From assembly GCF_015040615.1 (NCBI RefSeq), contig NZ_CP060402.1, forward strand, positions 868,001-932,000: a stretch of 64,000 nt of DNA, written 5' to 3'. The notes beneath the pieces are model-generated. The model did no database searches. It was not told the DNA's origin and saw only the letters and a program-made list of their open reading frames with translations. Shown piece after piece: positions 14,055 through 32,046 of the stretch; positions within the stretch are counted from its first letter, which is position 1; each line of letters begins with the position of its first letter. A program made the position numbers and the translations under genes. The stretch is from Microbacterium sp. YJN-G. GTDB lineage: Bacteria; Actinomycetota; Actinomycetes; Actinomycetales; Microbacteriaceae.

Positions 14055-14060
14055 CGTGCA

Positions 14061-15722: not shown

Positions 15723-15738
15723 CTTCACTGTACTGAAG
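15723..15738. promoter_or_regulatory. Island operator 1 (importer)
   Basis: CTTCACTGTACTGAAG, with perfect CTTCA/TGAAG arms; one of eight sites matching CTTCAYTATARTGAAG. It lies 55 bp before the binding-protein start and covers the -10 hexamer. Confidence 0.7.
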
Positions 15739-15756
15739 ATGCCATCAATATGTCAA
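15727..15756 (-). promoter_or_regulatory. Promoter of the ABC importer operon
   Basis: On the minus strand, a perfect -35 TTGACA (15756-15751), an 18-bp spacer and TACAGT (15732-15727). The -10 hexamer lies inside the island operator, so a bound repressor would block RNA polymerase. Confidence 0.6.
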
Positions 15757-15968
15757 GAGAATCGATGCTTGGATGAAGTGGTCGTGCTGGATGGCTGGTT
15801 TCGCGTGCGCCAAGGCCAGCCTAGTTGGTTTGCGTCCGCGTAAGTCGGCTGTTGACGCAGGTGTGCGGGTCGAGGGTGTCAGGGGGTGCCGCTGTCGCAT
15901 CCGGGGTTCAGGTGGGGCGCGGGTAATGCATCCGACTTCGCGACGTGCCCCTCGGTCTACGCGTGTGT

Positions 15969-16003
15969 CCACACTATAGTGAAGCTAGCTCATCATGATG
16001 AAG
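15969..16003. promoter_or_regulatory. Island operators 2a and 2b (sulfatase), tandem
   Basis: CCACACTATAGTGAAG at 15969-15984 (14 of 16 match, with a TATAGT -10-like core) and GCTCATCATGATGAAG at 15988-16003 (12 of 16). Their starts are 19 bp apart, the same spacing as the tandem pair at 32012/32031. Confidence 0.65.
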
Positions 16004-16091
16004 ATCCGTGTCGGCGGAAAACATACGGCCTCACGGAGATCGCGCACTCCCTGGGGTGACGCGGTCATCGACACGAAGTGGAGGGACCCTG

Positions 16092-18410
16092 GTGGACACA
16101 ATGGCACATGCCTATCCCGACGGAGCACGCGGCTATGAGACCTTCTCCGGTGTGGTCGATGAACTGGCTTCCCGGTCCACACCGAGTTGGCCGCCGCTGA
16201 CCGAGGCGGCGGATGGCTCTCCAAATGTCATCCTGGTGTTGGTGGACGATCTTGGATTCAGCGACATCTCTCCGTTCGGGGCCGAGATCGAGACCCCGAC
16301 GTTGCGCGAGATCGCTGAGGCGGGGTATCTCTTCACCAACTACCACACATCGACGGTCTGTGCGCCGGCGAGGGCGTCGTTGCTAACTGGCCTGAACCCG
16401 CACCGCGCGGGCTTTGCCACGGTCGCTGGATCCAGCCCGGGGTACCCTGCGTTCACGGCCGAGCTGCCTCCGGACGCGCCGACACTCGCGGAGTCCTTTC
16501 GCGCGGCGGGGTACGCGACGTTCATGGTCGGAAAATGGCACCTCACGCCGTCGAACAGGCTGCACGACGCCGCGGAGAAGTCATCGTGGCCGACCCAGCG
16601 GGGATTCGACCGCTACTACGGGTGCATGGACGCGTACACGACGATGTTCCAGCCGCATCGCCTGATGCGGGACAACAGTCCGGTCACGGTGGACGAGTAC
16701 GACAGCTCGTTCTATCTCACGGATGCACTGACCGACGAAGCGCGTTCGATGATCGCCGGCTTGCGGGCAAACGATCCGAGCAAGCCGTTCTTTCTGTATT
16801 TCGCGCATCAGGCGGTGCATGCGCCGTTGCAGGCAAGACCCGAAGACATCGAGAAGTACCGGGGTAAGTATGAGGCCGGCTGGGACGTCGTGCGCAGAAA
16901 CAGGGAAGCGCGCCAGCGGGCAGACGGACTCTTTCCGAAGGGATGTACGGCGGCCGCGCCGGATGAAGAGTTGACTCCATGGGCGGATCTCTCTCTGCCA
17001 CAACGTGCCTGGTTTGCGCGTTGCATGGAGGTCTACGCCGCGATGGTCGACAGCGTCGACCAGAGTCTGGGGAGGCTCCTGGCTCAGCTGCGTTCGATGG
17101 GCGAGTATGACAACACGATCGTTGCGTTCACCTCCGACAACGGCGCCAGTGGTGAAGGCGGCGTTCACGGTACCAGCGCTTACTTCGCATCGATGGGAGC
17201 GCCGACCGAACTGGGGCTGGCGACCTCGGACTCGGAGCTGAGTCTGGACGAGGTCGGCGGACCTCGACTCATGATGCACTATCCACGCGGTTGGGCTGCA
17301 GTATCGAATGCGCCCTTCGCCAAGTACAAGCGATACATGACAGAGGGGGGCATCCGTGCCCCACTGATCGTTTCGTGGCCCAAGGGGCTGCCGCGTGACG
17401 TCGAGGATGCTGGGTTGCGCACGCAATACGTCTACGTCTCCGACCTCGGTCAGACCCTGCTCGCGCTCGCTGGAGTCGAGCCGCTCAAGCGACTGAACGG
17501 CCAGAAGGTGAAGGCGGTCGACGGCATCCCGTTCGACGAGGTGCTTCGTGATCCGGAGGCTGACTGCACCCGCACCGAGCAGTATTCGGAATTCGGCGGC
17601 AGCCGGGCCCTCAGCAGTGGCCGATGGAAGATCTTGACCTCGCACCGTCAGGGCGACGAATTCTCCGACTCGCAGTGGCAACTGTTCGATATGGAGAACG
17701 ACCCGTGCGAGACGAGGGATCTGGCACAGGAACTCCCTGAGGTCGTCTCGCGACTTGCACGCCGATGGAATCAACAGGCGTGGCACAACACTGTGTTCCC
17801 GCTCAATGATGATGGGACGCTTACCCGTACCCGACCCTCCTCGGATCTGATTCTGGAGCAGCCGACTGTACTGACGCCGGAATCGCCGACGCTGGAGCGT
17901 TTCCGCTCGAACCGGTTGATACGTTTGCGGTCCTTCGAAGTCGTGGTGCGGCTCGTGCCGGATCGAGTTCAGCGGGGAGTGCTCTTCGCCCACGGTGATC
18001 AGGGAGGTGGCTACGTCGCTTTCCTCGAAGATGGTCGCCTCTGCTTCAGCTACAACGAATACGGCCGGATGCACCGGGAGACTGTGCCGCTCGGGTCGTG
18101 CGACCCGGAGGTCATCGCGTTCTCGTTCTCGGCGCTCGCGGACATCCGATGGCAGATCGACGTGAGCATTGACGATGAGCCGGTGCTTGCGATGGGGCCT
18201 GTTGTGCAGCTCACCGGTGCGGCGCCCTTCACCGGAATCAGCGTCGGCATTGACCGCGGAAGCCCGGTCGATTGGGAACTGCACGACCGAAGAGGGCCCT
18301 TCCGGTATTCGGGGCCGCTTGAAGTTGAGTACCGACCAGGGAACCGCGCGGACTACAACACAGAGATCATCGCGGACATCGATCGCACGGCCGCTGCGCG
18401 AACCGATTGA
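16092..18410 (+). CDS. Arylsulfatase-family sulfatase, cytoplasmic type
   Basis: A 772-residue type I sulfatase that would hydrolyse a sulfate ester. The formylglycine precursor is Cys90 in VCAPARASLLTG (C-x-P-x-R signature), the metal-binding VLVDDLGF is near the N-terminus, and VGKWHLTPS and FAKYKRYMTEGGIRAPLIVSWPKG are further family motifs. The length fits the approximately 780-residue arylsulfatase subgroup, whose last 150-170 residues form a beta-rich accessory domain. No signal peptide is visible, so the sulfate is removed inside the cell after import. I chose the GTG at 16092 because AGTGGAGGGA precedes it at good spacing; ATG at 16101 and GTG at 16008 are alternatives. Two island operators lie just upstream. 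Confidence 0.88.
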   Translation: MDTMAHAYPDGARGYETFSGVVDELASRSTPSWPPLTEAADGSPNVILVLVDDLGFSDISPFGAEIETPTLREIAEAGYLFTNYHTSTVCAPARASLLTGLNPHRAGFATVAGSSPGYPAFTAELPPDAPTLAESFRAAGYATFMVGKWHLTPSNRLHDAAEKSSWPTQRGFDRYYGCMDAYTTMFQPHRLMRDNSPVTVDEYDSSFYLTDALTDEARSMIAGLRANDPSKPFFLYFAHQAVHAPLQARPEDIEKYRGKYEAGWDVVRRNREARQRADGLFPKGCTAAAPDEELTPWADLSLPQRAWFARCMEVYAAMVDSVDQSLGRLLAQLRSMGEYDNTIVAFTSDNGASGEGGVHGTSAYFASMGAPTELGLATSDSELSLDEVGGPRLMMHYPRGWAAVSNAPFAKYKRYMTEGGIRAPLIVSWPKGLPRDVEDAGLRTQYVYVSDLGQTLLALAGVEPLKRLNGQKVKAVDGIPFDEVLRDPEADCTRTEQYSEFGGSRALSSGRWKILTSHRQGDEFSDSQWQLFDMENDPCETRDLAQELPEVVSRLARRWNQQAWHNTVFPLNDDGTLTRTRPSSDLILEQPTVLTPESPTLERFRSNRLIRLRSFEVVVRLVPDRVQRGVLFAHGDQGGGYVAFLEDGRLCFSYNEYGRMHRETVPLGSCDPEVIAFSFSALADIRWQIDVSIDDEPVLAMGPVVQLTGAAPFTGISVGIDRGSPVDWELHDRRGPFRYSGPLEVEYRPGNRADYNTEIIADIDRTAAARTD

Positions 18411-18462: not shown

Positions 18463-19944
18463 CTACTCCGCGAGAGGATGCCGCTCGAGCAGCGCGATCA
18501 TCACCATGGCGGCGACAGCGAGTGGCACCAACGCCAAGAAGAGGGGGGACAACGCTGCCGCGTAAGCTTCGGCGATAGCAGAACGCAGCTGCGGGTCGAG
18601 CAGGGCGAGTCGATCTGGAGAGACCGTCGCCAGCGGCAGATCATCTTGAGCCGCTATACCGCGGCGGTCCAGCGCGGCGGCGAGCGTGTCTTGCAGGCGC
18701 CCGGCGAATGCGACCCCGACCAATGAGATCCCCATCGTGGCGCCGGCCTGACGGAAGAAGTTGTTCGCAGCGGTGGCGACACCGACGTTGTGTGCGGGTA
18801 GCGCATTCTGCGCGAGCAAAGTCAACAGGAGCACGTTGGTGCCGATCCCGGCACCGAGTAACGCTGCTGATAGCGCCAGGCGCATCGGAGTCGTGTCGGC
18901 GCCGAGAGTTCCCAACAGAACGAGGCCGGCCGCGACGGCACCGGCACCGACTGTGGGAATGAGGATATACCGCCCGGTGCGTGACACGGCGAACCCCGTG
19001 AGAGCGGATGCGATCACGGTGGTGAGGATCATCGGGAGCAGCAACAGCCCAGCTTGGAGGGCGGACAGGCCGAGCACCATCTGGGCGAACGACGGAAGAT
19101 ACGAAAGCACGACGAACGAGGCCACTCCACTGCAGATCATGCCGGCAGCGGTAGCCAGAACGAACGTGCGACTGCGGAAGAGGATGCCCGGCAGCACGGG
19201 CTGCTCGGCCCGGCGCTCCGCAGGCAACAGCGCGAAGCAGGTTGCGGCGGCGATCACTCCAAGAAACCAGGACCACTCAGCAGAGAGCGATCCTGAGGCT
19301 GCGGTCACCAGCGCCGTCGTTCCGATGCAAAGCAGGAGCATGCCCCCGATGTCGGGTGCGACGCGGCTTGAGCCTGGACCGCTCGCCGCGATGTATCGCG
19401 CACTGAGCGCCAAGGCCATGACGAGCAGTGGAAGGGTCCCCCAGAACACCCAGCGCCACCCGGGGCCGTCGGTAAGCCATCCTCCGATGAGTACTCCGCT
19501 GATCGTGGCCACTGCCCAGACCGAACCGAATGCGCCTGCGTACTTCGCTCGTTCACGTGAAGGAACGGCCGCCGCCATGATCGTCTGCGTCAGCACCATG
19601 ACCGCACCGCCACCGATCCCTTGTGCAAGACGAGCGATGATGAGCACGTCGAGATTCCAGGAAGAAGCCCCCAGCAGGGTGCCGGCGCCGAACACGACGC
19701 TTGCTCCGAGCAACAGCCTCTTGCGATCGACGACATCGGCCAAAGCGCCAGCCAGCGGCATGCTGAGAGTGGCAGTGAGCACGAACGCTGCGACGATCCA
19801 GCCGATACGATCCAGACCTCCGAGCTCGGCGATGACGGTGGGCAACGCGGTGTTCAGTACGGTCTGGTTGAAGGAGACGACCAGCATCGAGGCCATCAGC
19901 GTCACCACGAGCATGCGCACCGACACCGGCGGCGACGCGGTCAT
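18463..19944 (-). CDS. MFS transporter, DHA2 (14-helix EmrB/QacA) family
   Basis: A 493-residue membrane protein with about 14 hydrophobic segments. Motif A (LAGALADVVDRKRLLL) and the early NTALPTVIAELGG segment mark the drug:H+ antiporter-2 family. It is the last gene of the aminotransferase-acetamidase-hydantoinase operon (9 bp after the hydantoinase stop), so it may export a pathway product or toxic intermediate rather than a drug. It faces the sulfatase gene end to end. Confidence 0.85.
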   Translation of the reverse strand: MTASPPVSVRMLVVTLMASMLVVSFNQTVLNTALPTVIAELGGLDRIGWIVAAFVLTATLSMPLAGALADVVDRKRLLLGASVVFGAGTLLGASSWNLDVLIIARLAQGIGGGAVMVLTQTIMAAAVPSRERAKYAGAFGSVWAVATISGVLIGGWLTDGPGWRWVFWGTLPLLVMALALSARYIAASGPGSSRVAPDIGGMLLLCIGTTALVTAASGSLSAEWSWFLGVIAAATCFALLPAERRAEQPVLPGILFRSRTFVLATAAGMICSGVASFVVLSYLPSFAQMVLGLSALQAGLLLLPMILTTVIASALTGFAVSRTGRYILIPTVGAGAVAAGLVLLGTLGADTTPMRLALSAALLGAGIGTNVLLLTLLAQNALPAHNVGVATAANNFFRQAGATMGISLVGVAFAGRLQDTLAAALDRRGIAAQDDLPLATVSPDRLALLDPQLRSAIAEAYAAALSPLFLALVPLAVAAMVMIALLERHPLAE

Positions 19945-19953
19945 CTCAGCGAC

Positions 19954-21378
19954 TCAGCAGGCCGGGCGGCTGAGCACGTCAGACGACACGCGCTGCGACT
20001 GGATCTCTCCGACGGGGCTGGCGACCAGCCGACGATCGTCCACCATCACGCGACCGCGCAGCAGTGTCATCGTGTTCCACGCGCGCGTGCGGTACCCCTC
20101 CCACGGCGTGTAGTCGGCCTCGTGCAGATCGGCTGCTGTCACACGGCGGTCCACATCGATGTCGAGTATGGCGAGATCGGCGTCGCTGCCGACGGCGATG
20201 GCGCCCTTGCGAGGGTAGAGGCCGAGGATCTTCGCCGCGTTCGCCGAGGTGAGGTCGACGAAACGGGTGAGCTCGAGGCCGCGGCCGACCACGCCCTCGG
20301 TGTAGGCCACGGCCATGCGCATCTCCACCCCAGCGTGACCGCCGGTAGCGTCGTAGATCGTCTTGCCGCGCGTCTTCACGTCGAAGTCGGTGCACACGCC
20401 GTCGGTCGCGAGGGTGCTCAGCGTGCCGTCGATCAGGGCAGGCCACATGTCGTCGCGGTCGTCGGCATCCTTTAGCGAGGGATACGTGTGATAGATGGCG
20501 CCGTGCGGCTCGCGGTAGTTCTCGGCAGAGAAGTACGCGTAGTGCGGGAGTATCTCGCCGTAGATGGGGGCGCCAGCGCCTCGAGCCTGACGGATCGCGT
20601 CGATGCCGACGTTGGCGCTCACGTGCATGAGGTAGATCGCGGCGCCCACGTGGCGGGCGAGCGTGATCGCGCGCTGGAACGAGAGCTGCTCGGAGAGTAC
20701 GTTGTGCGCGTGGTGCATGTTCTCGAGTCCGATCGCGCCCTGGTGCTTGAGGCGGCGGTACGAGTACATGACGATGTCGTCGTCCTCGGCGTGCACGGCG
20801 AGCATGGCACCGGCCGCAGCGGTCTGCTCCATGATCCCCCACATGTTGCCGAGATCGGTTTTCTGATGCGGGCGCGTGGGAGTGGTGTTCGTCATCCACA
20901 CCTTCCAGCTGCCGTGTCCGTTGCGCACTGCATCCGGGATCTGCTCCAGAACGCTGAACGGGATCTCAGGCTCTTTGAAGGTGCCGTGCAGGGCGAAGTC
21001 CGTGTAGCTCTGCCCAGTCCACTCGGCGGCCTTACGCGCGAACGATTCGGTGAGTTCGTCGCCCGGCTTCCAGTGGGCGAAGTCGACAAGCGTGGTGGTG
21101 CCGCCGTAGATTGCGCCCTCACTGACACGGTCGGCGCCGAAGCACATGATGCCGCTCTCCGCTGCGGTGGGCAGGACCGAGTTGGTGTGCACGTGCGGGT
21201 CGACGCCGCCGGGGACCACGAGCTTGCCGCCCACGTCGATCACGCGGTGCGCGGCGTCGGTCGGCGTGGTTCCTGCGAAGGCGAGCGCCGCGATGCGTCC
21301 GTCGGCGATCGCGATGTCCAGTGGCTCCGCACCGGATGGGGTGACGACGAGGCCGCCGGTGATGAGGAGGTCGTACAT
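19954..21378 (-). CDS. Hydantoinase/dihydropyrimidinase-family cyclic amidohydrolase
   Basis: A 474-residue member of the D-hydantoinase/dihydropyrimidinase group, which opens cyclic ureides or amides at a binuclear metal site. Visible metal ligands: the HVH pair in VPGGVDPHVH (about 60-64), a candidate carboxylated Lys in SWKVWMTNT (about 158), AVHAEDD, YLMHVSA and ATDG. The length is right for the family. It starts two bases after the acetamidase stop. Expected products are N-carbamoyl or half-amide acids, which could go to the cysteine hydrolase, acetamidase or amidase of the same island. The true ring substrate is unknown. Confidence 0.88.
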   Translation of the reverse strand: MYDLLITGGLVVTPSGAEPLDIAIADGRIAALAFAGTTPTDAAHRVIDVGGKLVVPGGVDPHVHTNSVLPTAAESGIMCFGADRVSEGAIYGGTTTLVDFAHWKPGDELTESFARKAAEWTGQSYTDFALHGTFKEPEIPFSVLEQIPDAVRNGHGSWKVWMTNTTPTRPHQKTDLGNMWGIMEQTAAAGAMLAVHAEDDDIVMYSYRRLKHQGAIGLENMHHAHNVLSEQLSFQRAITLARHVGAAIYLMHVSANVGIDAIRQARGAGAPIYGEILPHYAYFSAENYREPHGAIYHTYPSLKDADDRDDMWPALIDGTLSTLATDGVCTDFDVKTRGKTIYDATGGHAGVEMRMAVAYTEGVVGRGLELTRFVDLTSANAAKILGLYPRKGAIAVGSDADLAILDIDVDRRVTAADLHEADYTPWEGYRTRAWNTMTLLRGRVMVDDRRLVASPVGEIQSQRVSSDVLSRPAC

Positions 21379-21379
21379 G

Positions 21380-22282
21380 TCAGTCCTCTTTCGTCTCGAA
21401 GGGGGCGGTGAGCAGATAGCGCGTGTCGAGCGAGACCTTCACGCTCTTGCGGGCGTTGACGAGCTGCGACACTGAGACGTCGGCGGCGGCGGACAGCAGC
21501 ATCGCAGTGTGCTCCCTCGACCAGCCCCGGTCGGCCCGGACGATCGCCATGGTCTCGTCGAGGGCGACGGTCGCCGCCTCGTCGAGGTCCTCGCCGTCGC
21601 CGAGCACGATCATGCGGTCCTCTGAGAAGACGACCGGGCCGCGCACCGGAGCGGGGCGCACGACCCGGCAGGAGAGCTCGACCGAACCCTCCATCTCGAC
21701 GGCGGTGAGCGAGCACTCGCCGTCGCCCTGCACCGCATGCAGATCACCGGCGTAGAGGCTGCCACCGTCGACCTGAGCGGTCACGAACAGTGATGAGCCG
21801 GCGATGATGTCGCGGCAGTCCATGTTGCCGCCGTAGCGGCCGACGGTCGACGAGTTCGGGCTCTCGCCCGCAGGGGCGAGCCCGATCTTGCCGACCATGG
21901 GCCGGATCGGCACGCGCACGCCATCGGGGAAGTGCGCGTGACCGTCGTGCACGGGGATCACCAGTCCGTGCATGGCGAGCGGTTCGCCGAAGCCACCGCG
22001 CCCCGGCATGGTCACCATACCGCCGCGGTCGGCGATGCTGATCTCGTGCACGTCGATGCGCACGAGATCGCCTGGCCGGACACCCTCGATCCTCACCGGT
22101 CCCGTCACGGGGATCGAGAAGATCGAGAAGTCCTCGGCGGTCTCGAATCGGGGGTCTGTGAGCACGCTGCGAGTCTCGAGGACGAAGTGCTGCCCCTGTG
22201 CGACGGTCAGCACCGGCGGGGCTTCGGGGGCGAACTCGCTCCGGGCATGCAGGAAGTCGGCGTGTGCCGTCGCGCCGGTCAT
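21380..22282 (-). CDS. Acetamidase/formamidase (FmdA/AmdA) family amidase
   Basis: A 300-residue protein of the FmdA_AmdA family, hydrolysing short amides such as formamide or acetamide to the acid and ammonia. PGDLVRIDVHEISI, the PMVGKIGLAPAG segment, GGNMDCRDI and GDLHAVQGDGE (a metal-site region) are typical. The start at 22282 overlaps the aminotransferase stop by ATGA; longer upstream extensions have no support. In this operon it probably releases ammonia from a small amide formed after ring opening. Confidence 0.88.
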   Translation of the reverse strand: MTGATAHADFLHARSEFAPEAPPVLTVAQGQHFVLETRSVLTDPRFETAEDFSIFSIPVTGPVRIEGVRPGDLVRIDVHEISIADRGGMVTMPGRGGFGEPLAMHGLVIPVHDGHAHFPDGVRVPIRPMVGKIGLAPAGESPNSSTVGRYGGNMDCRDIIAGSSLFVTAQVDGGSLYAGDLHAVQGDGECSLTAVEMEGSVELSCRVVRPAPVRGPVVFSEDRMIVLGDGEDLDEAATVALDETMAIVRADRGWSREHTAMLLSAAADVSVSQLVNARKSVKVSLDTRYLLTAPFETKED

Positions 22283-23274
22283 GCTCCTGCGGAATCGTAG
22301 AGGACTTCTGCACCGCCGCTTTCCGCGGAGCCGGGTTCTGCCGTGCCGTAGACGGGGGTGACCCAGTGGGCGAAGTCGGTGACGCGCCCGCGCACCGCGT
22401 CCTGATAGAGCTCCTGGAGACCTGCCGTGATCGGGCCCGCCGTGGCGCCGTCGCCGATCAGGGTGCGGTCCACCGACGTGACGTGGTTCACCTCGGCGGC
22501 GCTGCCGCACACGAAGATCTCGTCGGCGGAGTACAGCTCGGTGCGGTCGATCGGTCGGATGTCCACGTCAAGGCCGAGCTGTGTGGTCGCCAGCTGCAGC
22601 ACGGAGTCGCGGGTGATGCCTTCGAGGATGCTCTCGGTCGACGGCGGCGTGCACAGACGGCCCTGGCGGACCATGAAGACGTTGTAGCCGGCGCCTTCGG
22701 CGACGTGGCCGGTCTCGGTGAGCAGGAGCGCCGCGCTGTAGCCGTTGCGCTTGGCCTCGAGCAGAGCGAGGCGGCCGTTCTGGTAGTTCGCGATCGACTT
22801 CACCCGGGGCGGCATCGCACGATCGGAGAGCCGGGCCCAGCTCGAGATCTGCACATCGAGGCCGGTGGCGCCGAAGTAGTTGCCCATGGGGATCGCGGCC
22901 ATGAACACTGTGGCGGGGCCGGTGTCATCAGGCTTGCCGTCAGGTGAGTCGACGAACACCTGGGTGCGCATGTGCAGATTCGAGCGCAGGTCGTTCGCGC
23001 GGATGAGTCCCAGCAGTTGCTCGGACAGCGCTGCTGTGTCTGTAGGGCCGTCGATCTCGACGACGCGCATGGAGTCGATGAGTCGGCGCATGTGGTCCTC
23101 GACGCGGAAGGCATACAGTTCGCCGTCCTCTTCGCTCCAGTAGGCACGGAAGCCCTCGAACACGCCGACGCCGTACTTGGTGCTCGTGCTGAGCACGTGC
23201 AGACGCGCATCGGCATAGTCGATGAGTTCACCGTCGTGCAGCAGGTAACGGACTGGGGAGGAAATGGGGGACAT
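22279..23274 (-). CDS. PLP fold-type IV aminotransferase (branched-chain aminotransferase-like)
   Basis: A 331-residue class IV aminotransferase, first gene of the minus-strand operon. FEGFRAYWSEEDG, the PLP-lysine segment RVKSIANYQNGR, GHVAEGAGYNVF and GSAAEVNHVTSVDRTLIGDG resemble BCAT more than D-alanine aminotransferase, but the catabolic context argues against a housekeeping IlvE. The likely role is to deaminate an amino acid released from the ring compound, or to supply a keto acid. The start at 23274 is preceded by AGGATGG; an island operator lies 39-54 bp upstream. Confidence 0.85.
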   Translation of the reverse strand: MSPISSPVRYLLHDGELIDYADARLHVLSTSTKYGVGVFEGFRAYWSEEDGELYAFRVEDHMRRLIDSMRVVEIDGPTDTAALSEQLLGLIRANDLRSNLHMRTQVFVDSPDGKPDDTGPATVFMAAIPMGNYFGATGLDVQISSWARLSDRAMPPRVKSIANYQNGRLALLEAKRNGYSAALLLTETGHVAEGAGYNVFMVRQGRLCTPPSTESILEGITRDSVLQLATTQLGLDVDIRPIDRTELYSADEIFVCGSAAEVNHVTSVDRTLIGDGATAGPITAGLQELYQDAVRGRVTDFAHWVTPVYGTAEPGSAESGGAEVLYDSAGA

Positions 23275-23312
23275 CAGCGCACACCATCCTGTCTTCAATC
23301 GATGCGTATGTT

Positions 23313-23328
23313 CATCACCATAATGAAG
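23313..23328. promoter_or_regulatory. Island operator 3 (aminotransferase operon)
   Basis: CATCACCATAATGAAG matches CTTCAYTATARTGAAG at 14 of 16 positions and overlaps the -10 of the minus-strand operon. Confidence 0.65.
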
Positions 23329-23565: not shown

Positions 23566-23567
23566 TC

Positions 23568-24392: not shown

Positions 24393-24403
24393 GAGGAGCT
24401 GCA

Positions 24404-25222
24404 TTGGAGAACATCATCACTGAGACGATGGCTGCAGAGTTTCCGCGCGAGATCCGGCCGGGTGTGTTCTGGATGGGGGCGTGTCTGCCTTTCCATCTCG
24501 CCGACCGGGTGATCCACGGGCATAATTCCGCGTACGTGGTCAAGGGCGACACTGCGTCGATGATCATCGATACGGGCAATCCGTCGAGTTGGAACACGAT
24601 CTCCAAGAAGCTCGACGAGATTCTTGGAGACGAGCCGCTGACCTATGTCTTCCCCACGCACCCGGAACTGCCTCATACAGGAAATCTGCCGCGCCTGGTG
24701 GAGAAGTATCCCGACGTGAAGGTGGTGGGTGATATGCACGATTACCACCTGTTCTATCCGCAGATCGTCCCGAACCTGAATTCCCGCGATCCAGGCGAGG
24801 TGATCGACCTCGGTGGGGGACAGGAGGTCCTCATCGCAGAGGCGATGATTCGTGATCTGCCGAACACCCAGTGGGCCTTCGCCCGGCGCGAGAAGGTGCT
24901 GTTCACCGCCGACGGCTTCTGCTATATGCACCGGCCGGAGCTCGATGACGAGGATCCTCTGCATCTCCCGGGTGAATGCGCTCTCACCACCGATGAACTC
25001 GCACAGCCGATCGCGGTGGAGAATGCTGAGTTCTTCACCGGCAGCGCGCTGTACTGGGCGCGGTTCAAGAACGACGCCGATCAGGTGTATGACCGTGTGC
25101 TCGCGCTGGTCGATGAACTGGGCGTCGAAGTCGTCGCACCCACGCACGGAAACGTCATCACCAATGTCCGCGAAGTGGAACCGATCATCCGTGAGGGGCA
25201 CAAGCGGGCTTATCGCTACTAA
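24404..25222 (+). CDS. MBL-fold hydrolase-like protein, pair 1 member B
   Basis: A 272-residue MBL-fold protein starting with TTG; AGGAGGAG lies at ideal distance, so I prefer this over ATG at 24428. Metal-loop residues are PTHPELPHTGN (His86, Glu88, His91), with IIDTG, Asp170 (FTADGF) and the last His248 (PTHGNV). The H-x-E-x-x-H pattern resembles flavodiiron/ROO-type MBL domains with the usual Asp changed to Pro90. There is no flavodoxin domain. It could be a hydrolase, oxidoreductase or dioxygenase-like enzyme acting with the degenerate member A. Its closest relative in the window is at 26738. Confidence 0.75.
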   Translation: MENIITETMAAEFPREIRPGVFWMGACLPFHLADRVIHGHNSAYVVKGDTASMIIDTGNPSSWNTISKKLDEILGDEPLTYVFPTHPELPHTGNLPRLVEKYPDVKVVGDMHDYHLFYPQIVPNLNSRDPGEVIDLGGGQEVLIAEAMIRDLPNTQWAFARREKVLFTADGFCYMHRPELDDEDPLHLPGECALTTDELAQPIAVENAEFFTGSALYWARFKNDADQVYDRVLALVDELGVEVVAPTHGNVITNVREVEPIIREGHKRAYRY

Positions 25223-25243
25223 CGCGGTAGTCACCGCACAGCC

Positions 25244-25289
25244 GACGACGAGGTCCGGCCCGCACCGCGTCTGGCACGCGCTCGTCGTC
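25244..25289 (+). terminator. Hairpin between MBL pair 1 and the cysteine hydrolase gene
   Basis: GACGACGAG (25244-25252) and CTCGTCGTC (25281-25289) are perfect 9-bp arms within the 123-bp gap. It may be an attenuator or mRNA processing site; no T tract follows. Confidence 0.4.
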
Positions 25290-25345
25290 CCCAATCTCCG
25301 GTTCCGGCGCTTCCGCCGCAGTCCGGGCTCGAAAGGAACAGAATC

Positions 25346-26017
25346 ATGATCGAGATCTGCGGCAAGCAGGTGCGAGACACACTCGAGGAGCTCCTCGACC
25401 CGGCCACGACAGCACTCGTCGTGATCGACATGCAGAAGGGCGCCGTGTCGCACGGTGGTGCGATCGGCGACTCCGGGCATGACCTGAGCATGATGCCGCG
25501 CGTCGCGGATCAGTGCGGTCGCGCAATCCAGGCGGCTCGCGCCAACGGGGTGCCGATCTTCCACATCCGTGTCGAGAACCTTCCCGATGGGAAGAGCTCG
25601 CCGGCGGCGTGGTTGCGGGCCCTCTACACGGCAGCGAATGGTCGTCCTATCGATCTCGGCCGGCTCAGCCTCAAGGGGGATCCGGCCACTGACTTCTGCG
25701 AGCAGTGCGAGCCCGAGGGGGATGAGATGGTCATCACCAAGCGCCGCCCGAGTGCTTTCGTGAGCACCGAGCTCGAGCTGCTGCTGCGTAGCCAGGGCAT
25801 CGAGTCGGTTGCGCTGGTCGGCGTCTCTACCGGCGGATGCGTGGAGGCCACTCTGCGCGATGCCGTGCACAACGACTTCTACGCGGTGCTCATCGATGAT
25901 GCCGTCGGCGCGTACGACGAAGTCGTGCACGACGCAGCACTGACCGTGATGCGCGCGCGTCACGACCACTGCTCGCTCGACGAGGCCATCGCGGTCTGGG
26001 AGGGCGCCGCTCGCTGA
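25346..26017 (+). CDS. Isochorismatase-family cysteine hydrolase (carbamoylase / maleamate amidase-like)
   Basis: A 223-residue cysteine hydrolase of the isochorismatase fold. The catalytic triad is visible: Asp28 (VVIDMQ), Lys132 (ITKRRPSAF) and Cys165 (VSTGGCVEAT), with the cis-peptide region before the Cys. This family includes N-carbamoylsarcosine amidohydrolase, ureidoacrylate, biuret and maleamate amidases. Beside a hydantoinase-like and PuuE-type ring hydrolases, it most likely removes the carbamoyl or amide group of the opened ring. A long insert between Asp and Lys (about 80-125, with FCEQCEP) makes a single family assignment unsafe. A GAAAGGA site precedes the ATG. Confidence 0.85.
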   Translation: MIEICGKQVRDTLEELLDPATTALVVIDMQKGAVSHGGAIGDSGHDLSMMPRVADQCGRAIQAARANGVPIFHIRVENLPDGKSSPAAWLRALYTAANGRPIDLGRLSLKGDPATDFCEQCEPEGDEMVITKRRPSAFVSTELELLLRSQGIESVALVGVSTGGCVEATLRDAVHNDFYAVLIDDAVGAYDEVVHDAALTVMRARHDHCSLDEAIAVWEGAAR

Positions 26018-26036
26018 GCGGCGTCTGGTAACTCGG

Positions 26037-26741
26037 ATGTCCTCCGTCACCGTTCACCGCATCGGCGGTGAGATCGAACTGGACGATCGCGTCAGCTGGT
26101 GCCCGCCGGGTGTGCGCGCGTCGCAGCCGGTGAGCTGCTACCTCATCGTGGGCGAGACCGGGATGCTTCTGGTCGACACCGGCATCCGCGCACACGAGAT
26201 CGAAGTCCTCGCCGCGCTGCGCGAGCTGTATGACGATGCACTGCCGCTGTCGATGCTGCTCACCCGCACCGAGATGGAATGCTGTCTCAACCTCCCGGCC
26301 ATCGAGAAGCGGTTCCCGATCGAGGCGGTGTATTACACCGGTGGCATCACCGTGCCCCGCTCTCGTGCGGAGGTCAGGCGCGTGAGCGTGGAGCCGGGCA
26401 GCTCCCAGTGGATCGAACCGCACCCGGGGATGCGCATCGAGCTGATCTCGCCGCTGATGCGACTGCTTCCCACGCTGTGGGTGCACGAGCCCGAGACCGG
26501 GACGCTGCTGACCTCGGATGCCTTCACCCACGGCGATGGTCCCGCCGAGAACGGTCTGGCCAAGTTCCGCTGGTTCTCACGCGCCGAGACCGGAGGGATC
26601 GCGGCGCATGTGCGCGAGGTCGTCGCCGATCGCAGGATCGTCGCCATCGGCCCGGGCTACGGGCGACCGTTCCAGGGTGAGGAGGTGGCGGTGCAGGCCG
26701 CCGCCCTCGCCGACGCGATCGAGAGGATCGGACTGTCATGA
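26037..26741 (+). CDS. Degenerate metallo-beta-lactamase-fold protein, pair 2 member A
   Basis: A 234-residue MBL-fold protein related to the 23568 product. LLVDTGI is kept. The metal loop reads TRTEMECCLN (Arg77, Glu79, Glu81, Cys82), Asp161 is kept (LTSDAFTHG, shared with the 23568 protein as TSDTFTHG), and the last His is replaced by Tyr208 (GPGYGRP). It is shorter than its paralogue because the region after residue 165 is reduced. It overlaps its partner at 26738 by 4 bp (ATGA), so the two are translationally coupled, consistent with a heteromeric complex. Catalysis with the standard metal site is unlikely. Confidence 0.75.
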   Translation: MSSVTVHRIGGEIELDDRVSWCPPGVRASQPVSCYLIVGETGMLLVDTGIRAHEIEVLAALRELYDDALPLSMLLTRTEMECCLNLPAIEKRFPIEAVYYTGGITVPRSRAEVRRVSVEPGSSQWIEPHPGMRIELISPLMRLLPTLWVHEPETGTLLTSDAFTHGDGPAENGLAKFRWFSRAETGGIAAHVREVVADRRIVAIGPGYGRPFQGEEVAVQAAALADAIERIGLS

Positions 26742-27565
26742 GCACGGGAACCACTTCGGCCAGGCGCATCGCGGATGGCGTGTTCTGGCTGGGCGGATGC
26801 CTGTCGGCCTTCGGCCACGGCGAAGAGGTGCACTACCACGTCAACGCCTACCTGGTGATCGGCGAGCAGCGCACAGCACTCGTCGACACGGGTGATCCCG
26901 CGCATCGGGACGTCGTGCTCGCGCAGCTCGACGAAGCCCTCGGCGGGCGCAAGCTCGACTACCTCGTGCCCACGCACCCCGAGATCCCGCACGCCGGAAA
27001 CCTTCCGGCGCTGATCGAGCGTCATCCCGAGGCCGTCGTCGTCGGCGAGACCCGCGACTATCACTTGCACCTCCCGGAGTTCGCGGACCGACTTACCCCG
27101 CTCGGACCCGGCGCATCCCTCGATCTCGGCGGGCGCGAGCTCGTTCTCATGCCTGCGCACATCCGCGATCTGGAGAACACGACGTGGGCCTGGGACTCCG
27201 GTGCGGGTGTGCTCTTCGTGTCGGACGGCTTCTCGTACATCCACGACGTGCCGGCGCCCGACGACGAAGAGGACGAGCCGGTGCACCGCCCCGGTCAGTG
27301 CCGCCTGCTCTCCGGGGAGATGCCCGAGCCGCCGACGGTCGAGCAGGCCGCCTACGGCACCGGACGGGCGCTGTACTGGACGAAGTTCGTCGATGTCAGT
27401 GATGCCTTCACGGCCATCGAGGAACTGCTTGACGCGCACCCGACGCGGTTCATCGGTCCCGCACACGGGAATGTGATCGACGACGTCGACGGGATGCTGC
27501 GTACCTCGCTGGCCGCGCATCGCGCGGTGTATCAGAATCGACCGGTCGGCAATGATTCACTATAA
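26738..27565 (+). CDS. MBL-fold hydrolase-like protein, pair 2 member B
   Basis: A 275-residue MBL-fold protein, paralogue of the 24404 product. ALVDTGD, metal loop PTHPEIPHAGN (His80, Glu82, His85), Asp163 (FVSDGFSYIHD) and His243 (PAHGNV) are the ligand candidates. GETRDYHLHLPEF corresponds to GDMHDYHLFYPQ in the paralogue. The matching motifs in both B members, against degenerate motifs in both A members, show an A+B unit duplicated on either side of the cysteine hydrolase gene. The last 11 bases overlap an island operator that serves the next transcription unit. Confidence 0.75.
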   Translation: MSTGTTSARRIADGVFWLGGCLSAFGHGEEVHYHVNAYLVIGEQRTALVDTGDPAHRDVVLAQLDEALGGRKLDYLVPTHPEIPHAGNLPALIERHPEAVVVGETRDYHLHLPEFADRLTPLGPGASLDLGGRELVLMPAHIRDLENTTWAWDSGAGVLFVSDGFSYIHDVPAPDDEEDEPVHRPGQCRLLSGEMPEPPTVEQAAYGTGRALYWTKFVDVSDAFTAIEELLDAHPTRFIGPAHGNVIDDVDGMLRTSLAAHRAVYQNRPVGNDSL

Positions 27566-27570
27566 TGAAG
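27555..27570 (+). promoter_or_regulatory. Island operator 5 with perfect TATAAT (PuuE operon)
   Basis: ATTCACTATAATGAAG matches the consensus at 15 of 16 positions, the best copy. It contains TATAAT at 27561-27566, with TCGACC 17 bp upstream (27538-27543). It overlaps the end of the preceding gene and drives the operon starting at 27628. Confidence 0.75.
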
Positions 27571-27627
27571 ATGCACTCGCCGGAGTGAACGCGACGAGGC
27601 GTCCGCCCGGTCTCGAAGGAAAGAGCA

Positions 27628-28554
27628 GTGACCATGCGTGATCTCATCGGCTACGGAGAGAACCCGCCCGTCGTGGGCTGGCCGAACGGCGCGCGAGTCG
27701 CCGTGTCGCTCGTGCTCAACTTCGAAGAGGGCGCGGAGCGCTCGATCGAAGCCGGAGACGACAAGGACGAGGACATCTCGATCTTCGGCGGCTGGTCCGC
27801 CGACCCCTCTCGCCGCAGCCTGATGAAGGAGTCGTTCTTCGAATACGGCAGCCGCGTCGGGATCTGGCGCTACCTCGGGCTGTTCCGCGAGTTCGGCGTC
27901 CGATCCACCGTGATGGCCTGCGGCATCGCTCTCGAGCGCAACCCCGAGGCGGCGCTGGCGATCGCCAGGGATGGTCATGAGATCTGCGGTCACGGCTACA
28001 AGTGGCAGGGCCTGGTCGACATGACTCCCGAGGAACAGCGGGCGGAGATCCGTCGCTGCGTCGCCGCGATCGAGTCCACCGCCGGTGTGCGGCCCACGGG
28101 TTGGTACGCCCGTGAGGGCATCACCGAGGAGACCAGGGACGTGCTCGTACAGGAAGGCTTCCTGTACGACTCCAACTCGTACTCCGACGACCTGCCGTAC
28201 TACGTCGACACCGCCGAAGGCGCGCATCTGGTGGTGCCCTATGCGGGCGACACCAATGACGCCCGATTCTGGGGTCATGGCAGTCTTGGCAGCCCCGACG
28301 ACTTCTTCGCCGTGCTGCGCGACTCGCTTGACTGCCTGCTGATCGAAGGCGCCGAGACTCCGAAAATGATGTCCGTCGGTATTCATCTGCGCATCGGCGG
28401 CCGCCCCAGTGTGGCGATGGCGGTGCGCCGGTTCCTCGCGTACGCCAGCGCGCAGGAGGGCGTCTGGTTCGCCACGCGCGAGGAGATCGCGCGCTGGTGG
28501 CTTGCGAACGCTCCAGCTATAGCGACGCAGCAGCTCGAAGAGGTCGGCCGATGA
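27628..28554 (+). CDS. PuuE-type polysaccharide-deacetylase-family protein (allantoinase / cyclic imide hydrolase-like), copy 1
   Basis: A 308-residue NodB-fold protein of the PuuE group. The opening RDLIGYGENPPVVGWPNGARVAVSLVLNFEEGAE is the family signature (shown here as its parts RDLIGYG, GWPNGARVAVS and LNFEEGAE), followed by RDGHEICGHGYKW, YAGDTND and SVGIHLRIGGRP. Members open small amide rings (allantoin in PuuE, cyclic imides in imidases) rather than deacetylating sugars. GTG 27628 follows AAGGA at 7 nt; ATG 27634 is an alternative. It is first in an operon with cupin, aldolase, XRE-cupin and racemase-family genes. Confidence 0.85.
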   Translation: MTMRDLIGYGENPPVVGWPNGARVAVSLVLNFEEGAERSIEAGDDKDEDISIFGGWSADPSRRSLMKESFFEYGSRVGIWRYLGLFREFGVRSTVMACGIALERNPEAALAIARDGHEICGHGYKWQGLVDMTPEEQRAEIRRCVAAIESTAGVRPTGWYAREGITEETRDVLVQEGFLYDSNSYSDDLPYYVDTAEGAHLVVPYAGDTNDARFWGHGSLGSPDDFFAVLRDSLDCLLIEGAETPKMMSVGIHLRIGGRPSVAMAVRRFLAYASAQEGVWFATREEIARWWLANAPAIATQQLEEVGR

Positions 28555-28964
28555 GCGTCCGTCCCGCGGCGGATCTCGAGCGCCTGGTCCATAACGCGTA
28601 CGACATCGGCTTCACCGACCTCGCCAAGGTCGGGCTGAAGGGGCAGCGCGATCAGGGACAGGTTTGCAACCTCATCTCGCGTGATCTGAGCGGTTCCGAC
28701 GATCTCAACGTCAGCCTCGGTCGCATCCTGCCCGGCCAGCACCACCTGTGTCATCACCATCCAGACGCTTCCGAGTTCTACGTAGTGATAGCCGGAACGC
28801 CGCTCGTTCACCTCGACGGCACCGACTACCGCGCACGTCCCGGTGACGGCATCTACATCCCGCGCGGGACGAGCCACGGCATCACCAACGACACCGATGA
28901 GAACGTCGAACTGGTGGTGGGCATGAGCAAGCCCGCCGACTGGGAGTTCGTGTCAGACGAATGA
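28551..28964 (+). CDS. Small cupin-domain protein
   Basis: A 137-residue single-domain cupin. The first cupin motif, GQHHLCHHHPDASEFYVVIAG, supplies probable metal ligands (the histidines near 70-73 and Glu of SEFYVV), and GDGIYIPRGTSHGI is the second motif with its His. It overlaps the deacetylase stop (ATGA) and the aldolase start (ATGA), so three proteins are translated together. It could be a small-molecule isomerase, a sugar-acid enzyme or a metabolite-binding accessory. Confidence 0.8.
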   Translation: MSVRPAADLERLVHNAYDIGFTDLAKVGLKGQRDQGQVCNLISRDLSGSDDLNVSLGRILPGQHHLCHHHPDASEFYVVIAGTPLVHLDGTDYRARPGDGIYIPRGTSHGITNDTDENVELVVGMSKPADWEFVSDE

Positions 28965-29716
28965 GCGCGCACAACGGCATCCGCAACGAGGTCGGCCTGA
29001 TCACGGCGGACCCGACTCCCACGCTGCTCGGGCTGCTTGAGGTGACCGGCGTCGATTCGATCGTGATCGACGCCGAGCAGACCGGGCTCACCGTCGCCGC
29101 CTGCCTCGATGCTGTGCAGCGGCTGCGCGGCAGCGGGGTGCGCGTCGGCATCCGGATCCCGTCGCTCGACGATGACTGCGTGCTCGCGTTCGCGAACACC
29201 GGCGCAGACGAACTTGTCCTGCCTCGTGTGCGCCGGATCGACGAGCTTGAGCGAGCGTACCGCGCAACGCGCTTCCCGCCTGCTGGGGAGCGTCCGCGGC
29301 AGGTCTCGCCCGCGTCGCGCTACGGCACCGCGTACCTGCATGTCCCGGTGCTCTCGGTGCTCGTGGAGACGGTGGATGCGGTGGATGCGATCGAAGACTT
29401 CGCCGCGCACCCGCTCTTCCAGGGTGCGTGGATCGGCCCAACCGACCTCGCCGACGACCTGGTCCGCTTCGGCCGGGGTGACGAGCTGAACGCCGCTGTG
29501 CAGAGGGTCATTGACGTGGTGGCCGCTGCCGGGCATCCCGTCGGGCTCCCCGCGCCGTCGGCGGCCCGCGCCGGCGAGGTGCATCGCCGTGGCGCCAACC
29601 GTGCGGCGATCTATTGGGAGCGCGAAGTGACAGCGACCCTGCGCTCCCTAGTTTCGGCGCGAGAAGCCGAGGACACGCTATCGTCTCGATACAACGACGC
29701 ACCGTCAATGAGCTGA
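28961..29716 (+). CDS. HpcH/HpaI-family aldolase-like protein
   Basis: A 251-residue TIM-barrel protein of the HpcH/HpaI aldolase / citrate-lyase beta family, which cleaves hydroxy-oxo acids to pyruvate and an aldehyde. GIRIPSL holds the usual substrate Arg, VLVET the metal Glu and WIGPTDLADDL the metal Asp. The usual catalytic His of the D-x-E-H loop is Gln here (IDAEQTGLT), which may change the reaction. The start overlaps the cupin stop (ATGA). It may process the carbon skeleton after nitrogen removal. Confidence 0.82.
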   Translation: MSAHNGIRNEVGLITADPTPTLLGLLEVTGVDSIVIDAEQTGLTVAACLDAVQRLRGSGVRVGIRIPSLDDDCVLAFANTGADELVLPRVRRIDELERAYRATRFPPAGERPRQVSPASRYGTAYLHVPVLSVLVETVDAVDAIEDFAAHPLFQGAWIGPTDLADDLVRFGRGDELNAAVQRVIDVVAAAGHPVGLPAPSAARAGEVHRRGANRAAIYWEREVTATLRSLVSAREAEDTLSSRYNDAPSMS

Positions 29717-29726
29717 AGGGCTGAAC

Positions 29727-30344
29727 GTGAGTACCACCTCTACGCCGAAATCGATCCCCGAGGAAAGCCTCGACCGCAACTTCTGGATCACTCATCTCGG
29801 TGCGCAGCTGCGCGAGCAGCGATCGGGCCGCTACACCGTCGAGGAACTCGCCGAGCGTGCAGGCGTGAGCGCGGGGCTCATCAGTCAGATCGAGCGAGGC
29901 ATCGGGAACCCGTCGTTCGCGACATTGCTGCGGCTCGCGAACTCCCTCGACCTGCCACTCGCCAGCATGTTCGCCGATCCGGGGTCGGGGGACGATCAGA
30001 TGCTCGTGCGGCGCGCGGACCGCCGGCGCATCGAGATCCCATCTCAGGGTGTCATCATGGAACTGATCGTGCCGGATGCCGAACGCAAACTCGGCGTCGT
30101 GAGCATGACGATTCCCGCCCGATTCGACGGCTCGGCCGCCCCGCATTCCCACGAGGGCGAGGAGGTCGTGCTGGTGAGTGCCGGAAGGCTGGTCGCCACC
30201 GTCGCGGGAAAGGACTTCGAACTCGAGGCGGGCGACAGCCTCACCTACGATGCATCGCTGCCGCACTGGTGGAGCAACCGCACCGACTCTGCCGCTGTGA
30301 TGCTCGCGATCTCGACTCCGCCATCGCTCGGTCGCGCGCACTGA
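29727..30344 (+). CDS. XRE-family regulator with C-terminal cupin (PuuR-like); candidate island repressor
   Basis: A 205-residue transcription factor: an XRE helix-turn-helix at about 24-80 (YTVEELAERAGVSAGLISQI) joined to a cupin effector domain at about 115-195 (PHSHEGEEVVLVSAG and YDASLPHWWSN). This HTH-cupin layout is that of PuuR and related repressors of amine and amide catabolism. A GTG start follows GAAGGG. It is the only DNA-binding protein encoded inside the island and lies in an operon preceded by the best island operator, so autoregulated control of all eight sites is the simplest model. Binding is inferred, not shown. Confidence 0.85.
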   Translation: MSTTSTPKSIPEESLDRNFWITHLGAQLREQRSGRYTVEELAERAGVSAGLISQIERGIGNPSFATLLRLANSLDLPLASMFADPGSGDDQMLVRRADRRRIEIPSQGVIMELIVPDAERKLGVVSMTIPARFDGSAAPHSHEGEEVVLVSAGRLVATVAGKDFELEAGDSLTYDASLPHWWSNRTDSAAVMLAISTPPSLGRAH

Positions 30345-30375
30345 TCGCGGACTCCACGCCCTCACGAGGAGGATC

Positions 30376-31101
30376 ATGACCACGACCGCCCCGGGTCCTT
30401 CCGTGCGCCTGGGCGTGCTCGCACCGTCGTCGAACTCCAACGCCGAGTCGTCCATGCAACGGATGCTCGCGGACGAGGCCGACGTCGGCGTGCATTTCAG
30501 CCGCTTTCGTCTGCCGCCGTCGCTCGGCGATCGGATCGATGCCGCCGTCCTAGGTGATGCGCCGGCGCTGCTCGCCGACGTGGAGCCGGATGCTGTGGCC
30601 TTCCACGGCACGTCCGGATCGTGGACCGGGTTCGACGGAGACCGCGAGCTCTGCGCGCAGCTCACGGACGTCATCGGCTCGCCGGCGACGACGGCGTCGC
30701 TGGCTGTGCGCGCCGCGCTAGACGTGCTCGGCCTGCGTCGCGTCGGGCTGCTCTTCCCCGGGCCGCGTCCGATCGCCGAGCAGATCGCCGCGCAGTACGG
30801 CGCGGACGGCGTCGACGTCCCCGTGCTCTCGGCTCCGGAGGCCGAACTCACCAACGCGCAGATCGCCCGTGTGGGCGCGGACTGGATTGATGCGCTCGCC
30901 GGGCCCGCATTCGACGGCGACGTGGACGGCGTCGTCTGCATCGGAACCAACCTGCGCAGTGCCTATCGCGTCACGAAGCTCGAGGCCGAGTACGGCATCC
31001 CCGTCATCGACAGTGCGACGGCCACACTCTGGCAGCTGATGCGGCTCGCCCGCGCACCCAGGTCGATCCGCGGATGGGGGCGGCTGCTCGCCGAGGGGTG
31101 A
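30376..31101 (+). CDS. Asp/Glu racemase-superfamily protein (maleate isomerase / arylmalonate decarboxylase-like) lacking both cysteines
   Basis: A 241-residue protein of the Asp/Glu/hydantoin racemase superfamily, closest to maleate cis-trans isomerase and arylmalonate decarboxylase proteins. LGVLAPSSNSNAE and the two half-site loops are recognisable, but the loops read HGTSGS (Gly78) and IGTNLRS (Gly190), where family members have CTSGS and CTNLR with catalytic cysteines. Cys188 is two residues before the second position. The protein may thus use a different mechanism (decarboxylation or hydrolysis without Cys) or act as a binding protein. It ends the PuuE operon. Confidence 0.82.
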   Translation: MTTTAPGPSVRLGVLAPSSNSNAESSMQRMLADEADVGVHFSRFRLPPSLGDRIDAAVLGDAPALLADVEPDAVAFHGTSGSWTGFDGDRELCAQLTDVIGSPATTASLAVRAALDVLGLRRVGLLFPGPRPIAEQIAAQYGADGVDVPVLSAPEAELTNAQIARVGADWIDALAGPAFDGDVDGVVCIGTNLRSAYRVTKLEAEYGIPVIDSATATLWQLMRLARAPRSIRGWGRLLAEG

Positions 31102-31110
31102 CCTTGGCTG

Positions 31111-32004
31111 TCAGGCCGAGATCGCAGATGTCCAATGCGCCAGGATCTGCTCGCGCGTCGCGATCCAGGCTCCCTTCTCCCGCGCCTGCTGCAGCAGGGC
31201 CTCCAGCGCCCCGATGTGAGCGGGGCGGCCGATCAGGCGCGGATGCAGCCCGACGCTGAGCACCGACGGACCTTCGCGCGGATCGTCCGCCAGCATGTCC
31301 AGCGCATCGCACAGGTGCGCGGCGAAGGATGCTGCGGTCGGATACTGCCGCAGCAGCGCCGAGTCATTGGTGTCGCCGGCGTAGGGCAGCACCGGCAGCG
31401 GCAGGCCGTCGACGCCGGGGTGCGGGAGATCGTCGTTGAAGCTGTTGGCGTCGTATGAGAACCCCTCCGCGAGCATGGACGCCCGGGAGTGCTCGGTGAG
31501 GCCATCTCGGGAATACCACGTGGTGGCACGCCGCCCGGTCAGCTGCTCGATCTGCTCGCGGGAGCGGAGCATGCGATCGCGCTCCTCGGCCGGGTCGAGC
31601 AGGGTGTGCGGCTCCCACAGAAGGCCGTGATCTGCGACCTCATGTCCGTCACGCACGAGGGCGGACGCGACGAGCGGGTTGGCCTGCAGTGCGGCTGCGC
31701 AGCAGAACGCTGTCGCGGGTGCGTCGTAACGCCGCAGCAGCCGGAGCAGGCGCCAGATCCCCGCACGGCCGCCGTACTCGAACGCGGACTCGAGGTCGAG
31801 GTTGCGGTGATCGGGGCGCACCGGATGCGCCAGCCAGTGCGCGCCGAGATCGTCCGCGCCATCTCCGCGTGAGACGCTGCGCTCGGCACCGTCCTCGATG
31901 TTGATCACGAGCGAGATCGCGACGCGGGCGTCGCCGGGCCAGCGCACCTGCGGTGGGTGCTCGCCGTAGCCGCGCAGATCGCGCGGCAGGGTATGAGCAG
32001 TCAT
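31111..32004 (-). CDS. PuuE-type polysaccharide-deacetylase-family protein, copy 2
   Basis: A 297-residue PuuE-group protein, a divergent paralogue of the one at 27628. RDLRGYGEHPPQVRWPGDAR, SLVINIEDGAE, RDGHEVADHGLLW, PYAGDTND and GLHPRLIGRPA align with the same landmarks. AGGAG precedes ATG 32004 at 5 nt. It is convergent with the racemase-family gene (9-bp gap) and divergent from the amidohydrolase; the shared spacer has two island operators. Two such ring hydrolases may serve two successive ring or imide steps, or two stereoisomers. Confidence 0.83.
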   Translation of the reverse strand: MTAHTLPRDLRGYGEHPPQVRWPGDARVAISLVINIEDGAERSVSRGDGADDLGAHWLAHPVRPDHRNLDLESAFEYGGRAGIWRLLRLLRRYDAPATAFCCAAALQANPLVASALVRDGHEVADHGLLWEPHTLLDPAEERDRMLRSREQIEQLTGRRATTWYSRDGLTEHSRASMLAEGFSYDANSFNDDLPHPGVDGLPLPVLPYAGDTNDSALLRQYPTAASFAAHLCDALDMLADDPREGPSVLSVGLHPRLIGRPAHIGALEALLQQAREKGAWIATREQILAHWTSAISA

Positions 32005-32011
32005 GACCACT

Positions 32012-32046
32012 CCTGGTTATAGTGAAGCGACTTCGATATGATGAAT
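32012..32046. promoter_or_regulatory. Island operators 6a and 6b, tandem, between divergent genes
   Basis: CCTGGTTATAGTGAAG (32012-32027, 13 of 16) and CTTCGATATGATGAAT (32031-32046, 12 of 16) start 19 bp apart, as in the sulfatase pair. TATAGT at 32018-32023 is a possible plus-strand -10 for the amidohydrolase gene. Confidence 0.6.

Follow-up and report, generated by a model that had tools for sequence, protein, structure and literature searches.

A candidate local XRE-cupin regulon with palindromic, often tandem operators across a catabolic gene island of Microbacterium sp. YJN-G

The 64,000-nucleotide stretch of Microbacterium sp. YJN-G DNA analyzed here (the window) raises the question of whether the palindromic sequences found across its catabolic island are operators of one regulator, and whether that regulator is the XRE-cupin protein encoded inside the island. 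A preliminary description had listed eight sites sharing a 16-bp palindrome, and all eight are present at 15723, 15969, 15988, 23313, 23550, 27555, 32012 and 32031. The common palindrome is shorter than claimed: the full 16-mer CTTCAYTATARTGAAG, with 0.05 matches expected by shuffling at ≤3 mismatches, fits five of the eight at this tolerance, whereas the 14-mer core TTCAYTATARTGAA fits all of them. Likewise, the eight sequences are real, but they are arranged as six operators, mostly tandem, and not as eight independent sites. A symmetrised position weight matrix (PWM) of 18 columns built on the eight sites scored them at 20.6–28.9 bits (15.7–27.4 in leave-one-out), and the highest score elsewhere in the 64-kb window was 11.9 bits. 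The consensus was picked from the sites themselves and is therefore circular, which is what an explanation by chance or base composition has in its favor; the leave-one-out scores, together with the orthologous loci, the dyad count and the 366-genome scan reported below, make that explanation extremely improbable.

A random frequency of the motif throughout the genome had been named as the result that would speak against a regulon. The scan was run and gave a different picture: in the 3.62-Mb genome the 14-mer core with ≤3 mismatches matched 34 places, compared with 9 for the reversed pattern. The lowest core score within the island, 17.1, was reached by 12 places, namely the eight of the island and 4 of the 26 outside it. 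Genomic context was examined for 10 of these 26, and the remaining 16 all score lower. A wide regulon was rejected: of the four top off-island places, two lie within long ORFs, a third is ambiguous, with ORFs overlapping it on either strand, and the fourth is a possible promoter where a short ORF begins. From the distribution of matches, the regulon looks local to the island. The place at the short ORF start (G000:C1:1976401, in L071) has a high core score and could be a promoter site.

The sites were found where they had been described, before the importer, the sulfatase, the aminotransferase-hydantoinase operon, the MBL-fold operon, the PuuE operon and the divergent PuuE2/amidohydrolase pair. 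Operator 1 (15722..15759) consists of the site 15723–15738 (PWM 23.0) and a weak partner at +20 bp (2.8 bits), and lies upstream of a minus-strand ABC importer operon (10161..15668; solute-binding protein at 14061–15668, permeases and ATPases; Pfam SBP_bac_5, BPD_transp_1 and ABC_tran). Its site covers the −10 hexamer TACAGT, with TTGACA 18 bp upstream. Operator 2 (15968..16004) is formed by tandem sites at 15969 and 15988, 19 bp apart (PWM 22.8 and 20.6), upstream of a plus-strand sulfatase ORF (16008..18410; Pfam Sulfatase), whose true start, judged by eye, may be at ∼16092. Operator 3 (23292..23329), with the site 23313 (PWM 25.8) and a weak partner at −20 (1.4 bits), covers the −10 hexamer CATTAT of a minus-strand promoter with TTGACA 18 bp upstream. 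The presumed operon on this strand (18463..23349) encodes, by Pfam, a class IV aminotransferase (22279), an FmdA/AmdA-type amidase (21380), an Amidohydro_1 protein (19954) and an MFS transporter (18463); the true start of the aminotransferase gene is probably downstream of operator 3. For this aminotransferase (22279–23349), the nearest solved relatives were branched-chain aminotransferases, with (R)-amine transaminases further down.

Operator 4 (23549..23586) has its site at 23550 (PWM 21.9) over the −10 hexamer TAGATT, with TTGACA at 17 bp, and a partner at +20, within the opening codons, that scores −1.8 bits in the window and more in several orthologues. It precedes a presumed plus-strand operon (23568..27565) of four MBL-fold genes (23568, 24404, 26037 and 26738) and an isochorismatase-like amidase gene (25346). 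Operator 5 (27554..27591; site 27555, PWM 28.9) contains TATAAT, has a very weak best neighbor at +20 (−0.2 bits) and lies upstream of the plus-strand PuuE-like 1 operon (27628..31101), which by Pfam and NCBIfam encodes PuuE-like 1 (27628), a cupin protein (28497), an HpcH/HpaI-like protein (28961), the XRE-cupin regulator (29727) and an AMDase/maleate-isomerase-like protein (30376). Operator 6 (32011..32047), with tandem sites at 32012 and 32031, 19 bp apart (PWM 20.6 and 21.8), lies between PuuE-like 2 (31111..32010, minus strand; Polysacc_deac_1) and the divergent plus-strand genes for amidohydrolase 32084 and amidase 33530 (32084..35056; Pfam), which are syntenic in 13/13 orthologous loci. 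A relic site of 7.5 bits (29683..29700) stands directly upstream of the regulator gene.

The genes under these operators suggest a function for the island. Both PuuE-like proteins match the allantoinase model TIGR03212 in part, with 305.8 bits for PuuE-like 1 and 238.6 bits for PuuE-like 2; identity as PuuE allantoinases was rejected for both because the cutoff of 424.6 bits was not reached. We take the name PuuE in this island as an allantoinase-type name and not as a reference to the E. coli Puu pathway. PuuE-like 1 also matches a solved PuuE allantoinase (3cl6). The isochorismatase-like protein 25346 is nearest to the biuret hydrolase and RutB types. The AMDase/maleate-isomerase-like protein (30376–31101) has cysteines at positions 93 and 188; we read Cys 188 as catalytic and the other usual cysteine place as lost, and presumably the retention of one of two catalytic cysteines points to a decarboxylase and not to a racemase or isomerase. 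The MBL-fold proteins 23568 and 26037 gave no Pfam match, and their fold was recognized from their sequences, pairwise BLAST and PDB relatives; by eye, the metal-binding His positions are not kept in either, and 24404 and 26738 are flavodiiron-type MBL-fold proteins. The four are encoded as two pairs (23568–24392 with 24404–25222, and 26037–26741 with 26738–27565), the metal-poor member coming before the flavodiiron-type one, which carries THPELPH or THPEIPH at the place expected for the metal motif. The paired MBL proteins possibly form heteromers. This combination with isochorismatase-like, AMDase-like and flavodiiron-type MBL proteins matches no pathway known to us or found in the search. 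The PuuE-like proteins group with allantoinase and with hydrolases of cyclic imides such as HxnM, as far as the accessible text of PMC9304392 describes the latter. Opening of a cyclic imide or ureide ring is a possible role for them. The island apparently breaks down a ring-shaped nitrogen compound, and a substrate of the cyclic imide, hydantoin or barbiturate type would fit its predicted enzymes.

The relation of the sites to the promoters bears on how they might act. The −10-like hexamers claimed for them (TACAGT, TATAGT, CATTAT, TAGATT and TATAAT) do overlap them, and TTGACA was confirmed at 17–18 bp before TACAGT, CATTAT and TAGATT. TTGACA occurs in these three of the six window promoters only; the other three have weaker −35 matches. 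Protein bound at the sites would sit on the predicted −10 hexamer and so block RNA polymerase, which suggests repression as the mode of action. At operator 4 the ATG follows 6 nucleotides after TAGATT, so the start is probably leaderless. This layout is kept in 13/13 orthologous loci with the −35 box at 16–18 bp by our count, and the box is TTGACA in 12 of them and TTGACT in L035. The transcript from 23568 is therefore probably leaderless and under a conserved predicted operator-promoter.

Tandem spacing was assessed with one anchor per promoter, giving 34 anchors from eight loci. For 21 of the 34, a partner of at least 5 bits was located at exactly 19 or 20 bp, compared with 0.26 on average and at most 2 in flank shuffles. 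All six window anchors have their best neighbor at 19 or 20 bp, four of these being weak (−1.8 to 2.8 bits). We infer that at tandem sites two dimers would occupy one face of the DNA helix. The −10-like hexamers in or overlapping the sites could also mean that the motif belongs to the promoter itself, as an unusual −10 region, and is no protein operator at all. However, the motif is a dyad that tends to pair at 19–20 bp, its partners can fall in first codons, and the place of the −10 hexamer within it varies from promoter to promoter; we regard this explanation as highly improbable.

To follow the sites in other species, one genome per species was scanned, which yielded 30 loci. Thirteen of them, from Microbacterium, Arthrobacter and Sinomonas, are orthologous, with regulators 73–91% identical, and the other 17 (regulators 30–35% identical) were left out of the footprinting. 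A 13-gene core with the regulator in the same place is kept in order in 13/13 loci, in agreement with the claim that the XRE-cupin gene at 29727 sits inside the island; the presence of the regulator in every locus is by construction, the XRE-cupin protein itself having been the query. A binding-protein gene between the MBL pair and the isochorismatase-like gene was present in 12/13 loci, and in neither the window nor L035. The PWM found 66 matches of at least 13 bits in the 13 loci. Sites were conserved in 13/13 loci both before the MBL operon and in the spacer between the PuuE-like 2 and amidohydrolase genes, and before PuuE-like 1 in 12/13, the PWM scan finding no site of at least 13 bits there in L033. 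Directly before the regulator gene, such a site occurs in 8/13 loci; in the window, where palindromic sites adjoin the operon of the regulator, only the 7.5-bit relic stands at this place. Alignments showed the divergent operator 6 block to be conserved while its flanks drift. Nine of the 66 matches were not counted as operators, being coding or stray (seven in PuuE-like 1 coding sequence, L034 4812 and L036 3458). The seven form an operator-like site within the PuuE-like 1 coding region, before the cupin gene, of seven Arthrobacter loci (L036 8446; L038–L043, ∼8420–8533).

Three controls bear on these counts. Column-permuted PWMs gave a mean of 4.9 matches over 200 permutations and up to 42, compared with the 66 observed; we think this control only partly clean, because permuted columns still resemble the motif. 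When all four-letter palindromic dyads with gaps of 0–12 were counted in nine loci, TTCA-N6-TGAA ranked first of 3,328, with 20 observed versus 0.38 expected. Other dyads also exceeded expectation (e.g. AGAA with gap 7, 16 versus 0.28), a consequence of the coding sequence that related loci have in common, and as the Arthrobacter loci are in many cases closely related, the counts are not independent. The dyad count, though made on related loci, and the genome scan are nevertheless better controls than the permuted matrices. In the AT-rich Bacillus-type loci (low GC, L045–L060) the PWM gave 4–27 matches per locus and was uninformative.

Which protein binds the sites was approached through the 29727 gene (29727..30344, plus strand). 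Its product combines an N-terminal XRE/HTH_3 domain (PF01381, 44.3 bits, cutoff 23) with a C-terminal Cupin_2 domain (PF07883, 57.3 bits, cutoff 27.2). Another factor, encoded elsewhere in the genome, might be the true reader of the sites and the XRE-cupin protein a bystander: binding by the 29727 protein is inferred, its gene occurs in all 13 loci by design of the search, and the flanks carry other regulators, such as a two-component pair in L038 and an MmyB-like protein in L036. The XRE-cupin protein is, however, the only member of the 13-gene core with a DNA-binding Pfam domain, as judged from the window copies, and the two-component genes of the flanks recurred in 5/13 and 3/13 loci, in an incomplete clustering that recovered the regulator itself in 6/13 and so tests weakly for additional conserved regulators.

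Further evidence against such a factor came from the genus. Relatives of the regulator at E 1e−40 or better were present in 7/366 genomes, six of them 83–100% identical and one 43%. An isochorismatase-like island marker, chosen independently of the regulator, was found at E 1e−60 or better in 6/366 genomes, which are the same six that have the regulator orthologue. The exact 15-mer form of the operator had eight matches in the 366 genomes, in five of the six genomes with island and regulator, all at most 8 kb from the regulator gene, and none in the 360 genomes without marker and regulator orthologue. This co-occurrence links the motif to the whole island and not to the regulator alone. An order-wide search detected the marker in 2/396 genomes, both of the genus, in a sample without known islands of other families.

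Some distant XRE-cupin loci have a site of the same kind in other gene contexts. Thirty loci with 33–45% identity were tested (29 from 43 non-self matches, 14 of which were not in the test, plus L067). A site of at least 15 bits within ∼220 bp upstream of the XRE-cupin gene was present in 10/30, several of which are close relatives, compared with a mean of 0.13 and a maximum of 2 over 300 shuffles; at the other 20 no site of this strength was found upstream of the gene. In L003, the XRE-cupin gene and an HpcH/HpaI gene are divergent and separated by a spacer that has two sites at a distance of 20 bp; in L067, a solute-binding-protein gene is preceded by a strong site. The site-bearing L003 and L023 have helices very like that of the window regulator, SAGLISQIERGIGNPSF, and most other site-bearing loci have SPAIVSQIERG-type helices. 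The helices of the site-less L004–L006, L015, L017 and L018 are as similar to that of the window regulator, and in this comparison helix similarity is an incomplete predictor of sites. The SPAIVSQIERG-type helix marks a second XRE-cupin subgroup (L014, L016, L019, L020, L022, L024, L025, L026 and L028) with sites such as CTTCAATATACTAAA beside the own gene; in L020 the own-gene site adjoins an NMT1-type binding protein. With the genus-wide and distant-locus results added, a factor from elsewhere in the genome is an unlikely reader of the sites.

The matrix, the synteny and footprinting of the orthologous islands, the co-occurrence in 366 genomes and the sites at 10/30 distant loci support the local, repression-type regulon first proposed, and make the 29727 XRE-cupin protein the likely binder. 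It would recognize the dyad TTCA-N6-TGAA, often as two dimers at tandem sites 19–20 bp, or about two helical turns, apart. As the promoter positions are consensus predictions, the protein might also bind the sites and activate, or act both ways. The overlap of the sites with the predicted −10 hexamers fits blockage instead, and the characterized P. aeruginosa XRE-cupins are, in the accessible text of PMC7901475, inhibitors of transcription that bind beside their own gene; activation is very unlikely. For the repressor reading, the cupin domain would sense a metabolite of the island substrate and the protein would be released, which would turn on importer and hydrolases jointly, including the operon of the regulator itself. 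The window regulator gene is probably part of the PuuE-like 1 operon, so that operator 5 would provide autoregulation. We hold it to be highly probable that the sites function as operators within a local regulon and that the 29727 protein binds TTCA-N6-TGAA and represses until a metabolite releases it. A wider proposal is tentative, and we would sooner doubt than assert it as a whole: that the island encodes a novel cyclic imide/ureide route of import, ring opening by the PuuE-like proteins and amidohydrolase, amide/ureide removal by the isochorismatase-like protein and amidase, and decarboxylation by the AMDase-like protein, with the paired metal-poor and flavodiiron-type MBL proteins as helpers, and that it is switched by an XRE-cupin protein that reads tandem 19–20-bp operators as dimer pairs, one of these operators extending into the opening codons of a leaderless gene.

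A literature search with limited reach into subscription papers found no paper on the regulon or the island among the matches listed. The XRE-cupin kind of repressor is already known; the local actinobacterial case, on a pathway for which no description was found, is new. It gives actinobacterial XRE-cupin proteins a concrete, testable candidate operator code and spacing rule, and joins unassigned hydrolases of Microbacterium, Arthrobacter and Sinomonas into one candidate regulon. A search for the substrate becomes practical, as whatever induces these promoters is likely to be the substrate itself or one of its metabolites. The operator over a leaderless start would, if confirmed, be a compact inducible promoter.

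Among known systems, E. coli PuuR recognizes targets with a TATAATGA-like core. The preliminary description had likened the sites to those of PuuR, and the likeness holds for the style: PuuR has the same XRE-cupin architecture and is the best NCBIfam match of the 29727 protein. It does not extend to identity. The 29727 protein was rejected as a PuuR on its score of 86.3 bits against the NF007408 cutoff of 211 and on gene content, since none of the 30 ORFs scanned with Pfam is a gamma-glutamyl-putrescine gene. PMC9951944, in its accessible part, describes a single intergenic spacer with four PuuR binding motifs. The Pseudomonas XRE-cupins, as covered by the accessible text of PMC7901475, differ from the 29727 system, which is actinobacterial, has partners 19–20 bp apart and has other gene content, the motifs themselves not having been compared. 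In the same text, sensing of a pathway metabolite by the cupin domain is reported for PuuR and supposed for PsdR, and the P. aeruginosa motifs are palindromic wherever a motif could be made. PsdR, PauR and ErfA share with the 29727 protein the XRE helix-turn-helix plus cupin, the palindromes and the own-gene site, and, like it, the Pseudomonas proteins mostly have few targets (PauR, with 29 genes, excepted), among genes for the uptake and processing of small molecules (PMC7901475, accessible text).
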